Source: a virus. Taken from it: a DNA stretch of 63,636 nucleotides. The notes under the pieces were generated by a model. That model was not told the origin of the DNA and did no database searches. It worked only from the letters and a program-made list of their open reading frames with translations. Each line of letters opens with the position of its first letter. The stretch's first letter is position 1. Location: the IMG/VR virus record IMGVR_UViG_3300017727_000005, positions 1-63,636 of that record. One strand, given 5' to 3'. The position numbers and the translations under genes were made by a program. This document shows, piece by piece, positions 47,553 through 49,234 of this stretch.

Positions 47553-47663
47553 ATGAAAAAAATGACTAAGTGCGACATGTTGACACAGCAATTAATTTGG
47601 AAAGCGTTGAAATATAAAGGTTTTTTATTTGAAATAACGCTTGACTTTAACAACAAAGTGTGA
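47553..47663 (+). CDS. Possible 36-residue ORF between the VWA and MoxR genes
   Basis: ATG 47553 follows the VWA stop directly (TAAATG) and opens 36 codons ending in TGA at 47661-47663: a basic peptide (KKMTKCDMLTQQLIWKALKY, then FLFEITLDFNNKV). It runs through the -35 of the next promoter. Translational coupling is possible, but there is no independent evidence that it is made. Confidence 0.35.
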   Translation: MKKMTKCDMLTQQLIWKALKYKGFLFEITLDFNNKV

Positions 47664-47669
47664 TAGGAT
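47641..47669 (+). promoter_or_regulatory. Early-type promoter of the MoxR-like gene
   Basis: GCTTGACT gives -35 TTGACT (47641-47646). After a 17-base spacer, GTGTGATAGGAT gives -10 TAGGAT (47664-47669). ATG 47681 is 11 bases downstream, in the same TATATTATG box as three sister promoters. Confidence 0.8.
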
Positions 47670-47680
47670 ATAGTTATATT

Positions 47681-48880
47681 ATGAAAAAAAGTGAAAGGAC
47701 TACAATTATGTTAAACGAGAAACAAAAAAAGTTTGTTGACCTTGCGGTTAAAGAACTTGGTACTGATACAGTAACAAGAAAGCAAGTACAAGAAATTGAA
47801 ACAAAATTTAACCTTACTGGTAACAGTTGGTTAGTAAATTCAGGAGATTACAAAGTGGGCAGAGGCGTATATAAATTACCTACTGACGGTGTTGTAAACC
47901 CTAGTAAGAATATCAAACAGAAATTGCCTAAGACTAAAGCAGTTGCTGAGACAGTTACTTTAAAAGAGACTGCTCAAAATACTGAGAGTTTAGTTCCTAA
48001 TAAAGAGGCAACTTTCGTATCATTTGGTAATTACAAAGATATTAAGAATATTGTAAAATCTAAAATATTCTATCCTACATTTATCACAGGTCTTTCTGGT
48101 AACGGTAAGACTTTAGGTGTTACTCAAGCGTGTGCTGAGTTAAAAAGAGAATTAATTAGAGTTAACATAACTGTTGAAACGGACGAAGATGATTTACTTG
48201 GTGGTTTCAGACTAGTTGACGGTGCTACAGTATGGCATGACGGTCCTGTTGTTGACGCTATGAAGCGTGGTGCTCTTCTATTGTTAGATGAGATTGACCT
48301 TGCTTCAAACAAAATTATGTGTTTGCAACCTATCTTAGAAGGTAACGGAGTGTTCCTTAAAAAGATTGGTAAATTTGTTGAACCTGCTGAAGGTTTCAAC
48401 ATTGTTGCTACTGCCAATACTAAGGGTAAAGGTAGTGAAGACGGAAGATTTATTGGTACTAATATACTCAATGAAGCATTCCTTGAAAGATTTCCTGTTA
48501 CATTTGAACAAGAGTATCCTCCTGTAAAAGTAGAACAGAAAATTTTAGATAACGTTATGTCCGCTTATGCTTTAAAGGATCCTAAGTTTACTGAGAACCT
48601 TGTTAAATGGGCAGATGTTATTAGAAAAACTTTTTATGATGGCGGTGTTGATGAGATTATTGCTACTAGAAGACTAGTGCATATCATTAATGCTTTTGCT
48701 ATCTTTAAGAATAAACTTAAAGCTGTTCAAGTTTGTGTAAACAGATTTGATGACGATACTAAAAACAGTTTCTTAGATTTATATTCTAAAGTTGACGCTG
48801 GTGTTAACATGGAAGATATATCTGGAAATGCGAATGATGTTGACGCAATAAACATGGAAGAGGAAACTCCAAGTGTTTAA
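47681..48880 (+). CDS. cobS: MoxR/CobS-like AAA+ ATPase
   Basis: This 399-residue protein has Walker A GLSGNGKT (K143), then TVETDEDDLLGGFRLVDG, Walker B GALLLLDEIDLAS and the sensor region FNIVATANTKGKGSEDGRFIGT. ILNEAFLERFPVTFEQEYP is typical of MoxR/CobS ATPases. It is commonly called cobS in cyanophages. Pairing with the upstream VWA protein indicates a MoxR-VWA machine. ATG 47681 fits the promoter box; ATG 47708, behind AAAGGA, would remove nine residues. A GTG at 47660 overlaps the -10 and is unlikely. Confidence 0.88.
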   Translation: MKKSERTTIMLNEKQKKFVDLAVKELGTDTVTRKQVQEIETKFNLTGNSWLVNSGDYKVGRGVYKLPTDGVVNPSKNIKQKLPKTKAVAETVTLKETAQNTESLVPNKEATFVSFGNYKDIKNIVKSKIFYPTFITGLSGNGKTLGVTQACAELKRELIRVNITVETDEDDLLGGFRLVDGATVWHDGPVVDAMKRGALLLLDEIDLASNKIMCLQPILEGNGVFLKKIGKFVEPAEGFNIVATANTKGKGSEDGRFIGTNILNEAFLERFPVTFEQEYPPVKVEQKILDNVMSAYALKDPKFTENLVKWADVIRKTFYDGGVDEIIATRRLVHIINAFAIFKNKLKAVQVCVNRFDDDTKNSFLDLYSKVDAGVNMEDISGNANDVDAINMEEETPSV

Positions 48881-48907
48881 TAAAAACATTCATAATGTAG
48901 ACCTCGT

Positions 48908-48936
48908 ATCCGTGGGCAGCAATGTCCACGGATTTA
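48908..48936 (+). terminator. Terminator-like hairpin before the tRNA-like gene
   Basis: ATCCGTGG (48908-48915) and CCACGGAT (48926-48933) form a perfect 8-bp stem with a 10-base loop, followed by TT and an A-rich stretch. The T-run is short, so termination may be partial and allow read-through into the tRNA and bS21. Confidence 0.65.
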
Positions 48937-48942
48937 AAACAA

Positions 48943-49016
48943 GCGGGTGTGGTATAGAAGTATTACGCCAGTTTACCAAACTGGAAATGCAGGAGCGTTA
49001 CCTGCCATCCGCTCCA
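48943..49016 (+). tRNA. Aberrant tRNA-Gly(ACC)-like gene with encoded CCA
   Basis: The 74 bases fold as a cloverleaf. The acceptor GCGGGTG / CATCCGC has one G-U pair, discriminator T and encoded CCA. The anticodon arm CCAGT-TTACCAA-ACTGG has anticodon ACC (48975-48977). The T stem is GCAGG / CCTGC. Glycine identity elements (G1-C72, C2-G71, G3-C70, U73, C35, C36) are all present. Unusual features are A34, a D-loop lacking the GG pair, and a T-loop AGCGTTA instead of TTCRANY. It could decode the abundant GGT codons, or be a degenerate or non-ribosomal tRNA. It lies 15 bases before bS21. Confidence 0.7.
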
Positions 49017-49030
49017 ATAAAAGGAACATT

Positions 49031-49234
49031 ATGTCAATAACTGTTGTAGTAAAAAACAATAATGTTGAAAAAGCAATCAGACAGCTTAAGAAAAAACTTA
49101 TGAGAGAAGGTGTAGTGAGAGAGTTGAAGACAAGACAATACTATGAAAAACCATCAGAAAAAAAACTCAGATTAAAAAAGGAAAACATTAAGCGTGTCCT
49201 GAAAAACAAAAAAATAAGGGAAAGGGAACAATAA
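49031..49234 (+). CDS. rpsU: Phage-encoded ribosomal protein bS21
   Basis: This 67-residue protein aligns with bacterial S21: MSITVVVKNNNVEKAIRQLK, GVVRELKTRQYYEKPSEKK, KKENIKRVLKNKKIRERE. The RxYYEKPSEK core corresponds to E. coli RREFYEKPTTERK. S21 sits near the 3' end of 16S rRNA and affects initiation on the Shine-Dalgarno helix. Phage copies are known, including in pelagiphages, and may tune host ribosomes to phage messages. The start is ATG 49031 behind AAGGA; the longer open frame from 48947 runs through the tRNA and is rejected. Confidence 0.9.
   Translation: MSITVVVKNNNVEKAIRQLKKKLMREGVVRELKTRQYYEKPSEKKLRLKKENIKRVLKNKKIREREQ

Follow-up and report, generated by a model that had tools for sequence, protein, structure and literature searches.

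The window, i.e., the whole 63.6-kb stretch of viral DNA analysed here (IMG/VR record IMGVR_UViG_3300017727_000005), belongs to a T4-like phage that infects SAR11 and resembles Pelagibacter phage HTVC008M, with which it shares 98.9% identity over 356 bp. HTVC008M was isolated on SAR11 strain HTCC1062, as was phage Mosig; the host of the window phage is, from the identity of the phage, a Gram-negative SAR11 bacterium. A tRNA gene sits in the window between the gene of a CobS-like ATPase (PHROG 249, 47660..48880) and the bS21 (rpsU) gene (49031..49234, ATG start at 49031), all on the plus strand. From the 5' to the 3' end, the ATPase gene is followed, on the same strand, by a conserved leader element, TCATAATGTAGACCTC (48890..48905), an 11-bp hairpin (48908..48933), a complete tRNA-Gly(ACC) cloverleaf with U73 and an encoded CCA (48943..49016), and the AGG and ACATTATG of bS21, start codon included (49022..49033).

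ARAGORN calls a tRNA-Gly(acc) at exactly 48943-49016 and no second tRNA over the whole window. The Rfam family RF00005 matches at 48943-49013 with 49.5 bits for a gathering score of 29, both calls bearing out the sequence-only reading of a real tRNA-Gly(ACC) with an encoded CCA. The cloverleaf is of standard dimensions: a 7-bp acceptor stem (one G-U), a 3-bp D-stem plus a T-T, a 5-bp anticodon stem and a 5-bp T-stem. The consensus letters G18, T54, T55 and A58, which RF00005 membership does not require, are replaced by A18, A54, G55 and T58; the element is filed as a tRNA because the curated score is reached and because cellular tRNAs of SAR11 have the same change. Glycine identity elements comprise G1-C72, C2-G71, G3-C70, C35, C36 and U73, and all of them are present in the window tRNA and its relatives. 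The three base pairs and U73 are invariant over 57 Gly sequences, which is in part a product of the selection: the anticodon served to pick the set, and the ends were prescribed by one of the search patterns. When folded, the 74-mer reaches a z-score of -2.4, with 6 of 200 shuffles folding equally well. A scan for U8, perfect acceptor, anticodon and T stems and an encoded CCA returns a single cloverleaf gene in the whole HTVC008M genome, that same tRNA-Gly(ACC).

The tRNA at 48943-49016 is not only real but conserved. Among 80 viral loci bearing bS21, ARAGORN sees a tRNA upstream of this gene in 13, and scanning the 300 nt in front of it yields a cloverleaf in 15 loci, each with an ACC anticodon and the altered elbow described below (L002 is too short upstream to judge). 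In these 15 loci, found via bS21 and not via the tRNA, the anticodon (48975..48977 in the window) and its loop, U73 and CCA are identical while the stems change in pairs; six distinct sequences of the clade display exchanged pairs at 6-67, 7-66 and 49-65. A set of 21 viral stretches was chosen by the 19-nt anticodon arm alone, and is therefore unselected on acceptor or T-stem: 20 have 7/7 acceptor and 5/5 T-stem pairs, and the remaining one (L095), without full stems, is a chance match. Over the 57 Gly sequences, two-sided changes occur at 14 of the 21 stem pairs, with 266 cells versus a shuffle mean of 70; this count takes columns 12-21 as the third D-stem pair, rather than 12-22, and its paired percentages are high by construction, since the scanner demanded perfect stems. 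The proposal that relatives with unpreserved stems would speak against the tRNA has thus been answered in its favor. A chance cloverleaf is ruled out, as the strict scan of 287 sequences, made up of the window plus 286 loci of which some overlap, yields 326 hits, as against 0 in each of 5 first-order resampled sets. Among the scanned loci are a copy of the window stretch (L001), L082 and stretches that overlap within a contig; such copies drop out in counts of unique sequences.

The tRNA is embedded in a leader, and a pairing between the 5' element of this leader and the start of bS21 is predicted. The core of TCATAATGTAGACCTC is found upstream of bS21 in 51 of the 80 loci, 15 with the tRNA and 36 without it, and in the loci inspected for it, tRNA-less relatives included, a hairpin comes after the element. 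To note, AUGUAG, a start-stop, is part of the element, and in many loci the bS21 start region is complementary to it. In the MFE fold of 48880-49035, 8+3 bases of the element (within 48891-48904) pair with the AGG and ACAUUAUG at the bS21 start, enclosing the hairpin and the tRNA; the fold of the whole leader stretch, tRNA included, has a z-score of -5.9. All nine tRNA-clade loci tested keep a predicted pairing of 8-9 of the 9 start-region bases with the element (shuffle P 0.000-0.036), even though their start-region sequences differ. Such folds raise the possibility that the tRNA acts as a processing switch: the element would pair across it with the SD and start codon of bS21, and excision by RNase P and a 3' nuclease would cut the leader off from the message and free bS21 translation. 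The Melnitz phage, with a different tRNA (tRNA-Arg, of canonical elbow) 13 nt before its bS21, is consistent with this idea (PMC9004378).

This mechanism nevertheless appears unlikely. Besides the 36 tRNA-less bS21 loci that carry the element, pairing is predicted in many of the 16 such loci tested, with 7 of the 9 start-region bases paired in nine, 6 in one, 3 in two and 0 in four, and duplex energies in five of them are as low as in the tRNA clade. Since it is also predicted in loci devoid of the tRNA, the pairing of element and start would be independent of it. Within the tRNA clade, the start region of L094 has, by eye, no complement to ACATTATG; bS21 was not found near the tRNA in 4 of the 20 stretches with this anticodon arm; and the mechanism is built wholly on predicted folds. 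A role as bS21-specific leader element can be rejected, the tRNA being upstream of bS21 in 15 of 80 loci only and occurring elsewhere, as in those 4 stretches and in phage Mosig (MT647606; L467:1484-1579), where a tRNA-Gly(ACC) with the same elbow change is located between the Hsp20 and sliding clamp genes, within the annotated 31-residue hypothetical protein Mosig_000011. Of the earlier suggestion of a structural leader for bS21, the location inside a leader predicted to pair with the bS21 start stands, while the specific tie to the tRNA does not. The start-region pairing looks like a general feature of the leader, into which, according to these fold predictions, a tRNA has been set in one clade.

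The suggestion that a GGU-reading tRNA would suit this phage has gained ground. GGU accounts for 976 of the 1281 glycine codons (76%) in the 46 window ORFs of at least 150 aa, in agreement with its having been singled out as the main glycine codon, and for 73% in HTVC008M, as compared to 38% in 313 ORFs of 120 Pelagibacter loci, a value identical whether 47 of these loci or all 120 are used. A search pattern for tRNA-Gly(ACC) is matched in 0 of 297 SAR11-family genomes, the pattern demanding U32 and fixed ends and hence passing over ACC tRNAs of other make as well as some known tRNA-Gly, e.g., the UCC tRNA of genome G016. Of 41 genomes, 37 have a pattern-fitting tRNA-Gly, all with GCC and three with UCC in addition; in G016 and G019, the tRNA-Gly found are GCC and UCC only. 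The phage tRNA would then supply an isoacceptor not found in the host clade, whose ACC anticodon would form Watson-Crick pairs with the dominant GGU codon of the phage. G-U wobble should already enable the host tRNA-Gly(GCC) to read GGU, so that a need of the phage for tRNA-Gly(ACC) is not implied.

Conversion of A34 to inosine, considered earlier, is unlikely. Bacterial TadA is described as deaminating only tRNA-Arg in the introduction of PMC3711424, and the ACG anticodon of this sole bacterial target is replaced here by ACC; for this reason, A34 probably stays unmodified. The same introduction mentions an engineered E. coli tRNA-Gly in which A34 allowed all four GGN codons to be read, GGA to the smallest extent. 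The A34 of the phage tRNA may likewise read GGN codons other than GGU.

The elbow is the most unusual part of the molecule. Textbooks treat the G18-Psi55 contact and the TPsiC loop as constants of tRNAs, and tRNA finders look for them among other features. In the window, the D-loop is AGAAGTA (48956..48962), which aligns with homologues as A14 G15 A16 A18 G19 T20 A21: G18 alone is replaced and G19 is kept, contrary to the first impression of a D-loop deprived of both. The T-loop was read correctly as AGCGTTA (48994..49000, i.e., A54 G55 C56 G57 T58 T59 A60) in place of TTCRANY. As judged from these alignments, the elbow is exchanged, not lost: the outer contact G19-C56 is kept, the inner G18-Psi55 would give way to A18 facing G55, in a geometry that we infer, and the 54-58 contact goes from U-A to A-U in the window and to G-G in sister tRNAs. 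Neither Psi55 nor Gm18 can be present in an A18/G55 elbow.

A pattern for the window D-loop and T-loop, leaving the anticodon free, occurs in at least 120 viral stretches. From the loci collected, 72 unique matches were obtained, at least one of them by chance, with anticodons ACC (26), UCC (26), GGU (Thr, 9) and others; these and the following viral figures hold among the matches listed and are not population frequencies, and the anticodon counts are biased by the searches. The 326 scanned tRNAs reduce to 184 unique sequences, 93 with a TTC[AG]A T-loop and 91 without. G55-C56 is present in 84 of the latter, whose anticodons correspond to 12 amino acids (Gly, Thr, Cys, Phe, Ile, Glu, Pro, His, Asp, Val, Asn and Gln). 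Elbow positions are exact in the 106 unique viral tRNAs with a 7-nt D-loop. In these, positions 18/55 are A/G in 74, G/T in 30, A/T in 1 and T/T in 1; positions 54/58 are T/A in 40, G/G in 40, A/T in 21, T/T in 4 and G/A in 1; and positions 19/56 are G/C in 101, A/T in 3 and T/C in 2. Much of this set having been retrieved with two search patterns, a second count was made on 106 tRNAs that match neither: the D-loop contains AG in 20 of 23 tRNAs with G55-C56, the other 3 being devoid of it, and GG in 79 of 81 with T55-C56. Pairing of Y20 with G55 in place of A18 was considered and rejected, since position 20 does not track position 55, T prevailing there whether 55 is T (29) or G (65).

The exchange can be followed between close homologues. 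Two tRNA-Pro of 82% identity differ in both loops, that of phage GiJojo being canonical and that of locus L169 having GACAGCA/GGCAGCA, and half-rewired forms combine AACAGCA or AAGAGCA with TGCGATT. A single-family origin is rejected, the 95 clusters at 80% core identity being 18 purely rewired, 69 canonical, 5 other and 3 mixed (clusters, not tree events). ARAGORN detects 93/93 canonical and 21/84 rewired sequences, while Rfam, in eight loci, detects 14/14 and 6/17, respectively. In the other isolated phages inspected (GiJojo, BillNye, MP1 and P59, out of several hundred matches), the tRNAs read have canonical T-loops; other isolates may carry rewired tRNAs. No mention of an A18/G55 elbow in phages or SAR11 was found in the literature surveyed, of which coverage is partial. 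Two variants are to be noted. Loci L357, L381 and L352 encode a rewired phage tRNA-Gly one base shorter, with the anticodon arm CTAGC TCCCAAG CTAGA, perhaps a tRNA-Gly(CCC). In L112, L137 and six further copies, a tRNA-Gly(ACC) with D-loop AATGATA and T-loop TTTGATT exchanges G19-C56 for A19-U56.

The same elbow is used by the host clade, which rules out a phage-only feature. The SAR11 genome G016, a single 1.32-Mb contig, contains 32 tRNAs by Rfam, of which three are rewired: Val(GAC) (AATAGTA/AGCGTAA), Phe (AGGAGTA/TGCGAAT) and His (AATAGCA/AGCGTAA). The tRNA-His and tRNA-Phe are the only genes found there for these identities, and so must decode. A pattern with a 5-nt variable loop finds a rewired tRNA-Phe or -Val in 26 of 60 SAR11-family genomes, a further match in G040 being due to chance; in G015, G024 and G033, the tRNA-Val combines AAAAGTA with AGCGTTA, the loop pair of the sister phage tRNAs. 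The strict pattern with a 4-nt variable loop, which recovers 63 of the 84 rewired viral tRNAs, matches 3 of 79 SAR11-family genomes, always in tRNA-His, and 0 of 299 Pseudomonadota genomes (its canonical counterpart: 28/31). A class search over 114 genomes other than G003 gave one match, a CAT-anticodon tRNA in G682. Homologous host tRNAs may differ in both loops, the tRNA-Phe of G019 having AGTTGGTA/TTCAATT and that of G016 AGGAGTA/TGCGAAT. In G019, of which the whole contig was read, Phe, Val(GAC) and Thr(GGT) are canonical and tRNA-His is rewired (AGTTAGTTA/TGCAACT). The tRNA-Thr(GGT) of G016 (L508, G016:C1:1024800-1025200) has, by eye, the T-loop GTCAGTA, with G54/G58, U55 and a GG D-loop, a 54-58 exchange in the absence of the 18-55 exchange. 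ARAGORN misses tRNA-His in the three stretches tried (L471-L473; in G016 the gene is near C1 1020142-1020215), and some SAR11 genomes would consequently appear to lack this tRNA.

The Psi55 synthase domain of TruB (PF01509) is detected in 20 of 60 SAR11-family genomes and in 14 of 14 control genomes, absence meaning here no PF01509 match, which is weak evidence where a genome is partial. Among the 40 genomes that lack a match, 18 have a rewired tRNA-Phe, as compared to 0 of the 20 with a match (Fisher p = 0.0002); rewired Phe or Val is present in 23 of 40 and 3 of 20, respectively (p = 0.002), whereas rewired tRNA-Val(GAC) shows no link (10 of 40 and 3 of 20, p = 0.51); all three tests ignore kinship. 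As tRNA-His is already rewired in the TruB-positive G019, the loss of TruB would not be the starting point of the exchange, but it may have widened it.

Two other readings of the elbow have to be weighed. Rewiring could represent an escape from tRNases of host defence or of competitors that recognise the T-loop or the Psi55 elbow. T-loop-cutting toxins exist, and large phage arrays mix rewired with canonical tRNAs, which would be expected if only a part of the tRNAs were targets. SAR11 genomes possess the same elbow, however, so that the phage would not simply evade what host tRNAs suffer, and this explanation is improbable. The alternatives of a decaying relic and of a tRNA-Gly that uses EF-Tu poorly and acts as a decoy or outside translation are disfavoured as very improbable: the elbow departs from the consensus and ARAGORN misses 63 of the 84 rewired tRNAs, but anticodon loop, U73 and CCA are identical in 15/15 loci while stems compensate, and the sole tRNA-His and tRNA-Phe found in G016 use this elbow. 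The notion of lost elbow contacts is likewise disfavoured, since G19-C56 is kept, 18/55 changes in concert and the same elbow serves tRNA-Phe, -Val and -His in SAR11 genomes; for these reasons, neither a decoy nor a parallel with non-ribosomal tRNA-Gly is needed.

With a probability of roughly three in four, the T4-like SAR11 phage of the window encodes a functional elongator tRNA-Gly(ACC), its elbow rewired and not lost. Elongator activity is suggested by the covariation of the stems and by the use of the same elbow in host tRNAs; the gene is presumably expressed and its product charged, and it most likely decodes the dominant GGU codon of the phage, as far as codon use and anticodon tell. 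The tRNA is a member of a wider class with this elbow, common to phage and host genomes. Phage and host tRNAs probably share an elbow that is independent of modification, as many SAR11 genomes have no detectable TruB. On a broader scale, the odds seem even that an alternative elbow (A18/G55, G19-C56 kept, 54-58 exchanged) working without Psi55 is common to SAR11, their phages and certain other large phages, that it spread to more host tRNAs after TruB loss, that the phages either acquired it from the hosts or evolved it to match them, and that standard finders miss most such phage tRNAs and one host tRNA-His; the cause of the elbow change, any role of TruB loss included, we infer.

The repeated natural exchange of G18-Psi55 in abundant bacteria and their phages offers a test case for the tolerance of tRNAs to the loss of the Psi55 synthase, and with a bacterial-type tRNA-Gly that naturally has A34, decoding by this base in its unmodified form would become testable in a virus. 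Furthermore, tRNA counts are too low for some marine phages, as HTVC008M is listed with 0 tRNAs in Table 1 of PMC7029224, and the Mosig copy lies inside an annotated protein; no tRNA is annotated in the RefSeq record of HTVC008M.

The closest known relatives of the window tRNA are the tRNA-Gly(UCC) of T4-like phages and bacteria, which resemble it in the acceptor and D-arm and have the same glycine positions; over its first 23 nt, a sister tRNA shows 91% identity to T4 tRNA-Gly (E = 7, weak alone). Whereas these have U34, G18/U55 and U54/A58, the window tRNA has A34, A18/G55 and an exchanged 54/58. With the SAR11 tRNA-Val(GAC), -Phe and -His it shares A18-G19 facing G55-C56, and the tRNA-Val of G015, G024 and G033 have the same T-loop and a D-loop, AAAAGTA, that differs at position 15 only. 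Unlike the window tRNA, the rewired SAR11 tRNAs have another identity and anticodon, and Val and Phe a 5-nt variable loop. The staphylococcal non-ribosomal tRNA-Gly serves peptidoglycan synthesis by the FemXAB pathway in a Gram-positive host, with lowered EF-Tu binding, while the host of the window phage is a Gram-negative SAR11. The G54-G58 of the sister tRNAs has also been selected in E. coli suppressor libraries. The ACC anticodon is shared with 14 unique viral tRNA-Gly of canonical T-loop, among the matches listed. The engineered E. coli tRNA-Gly has the same A34 (PMC3711424), that of the window being natural, and in eukaryotes tRNA-Gly(ACC) is rare and a poor deaminase substrate according to PMC6720975. 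As in eukaryotic tRNA-Ala, the T54-A58 pair is replaced, there by a purine-purine A54/A58; the passage of PMC7566577 on this tRNA mentions no change at 18/55, which is exchanged here. Lastly, tRNA-Pyl and type II mitochondrial tRNAs resemble the window tRNA in being devoid of the GG and T-Psi-C consensus, but (PMC7609411) they lose or replace the contacts between the D- and T-loops, whereas the window tRNA combines stems of normal length with a conserved G19-C56.
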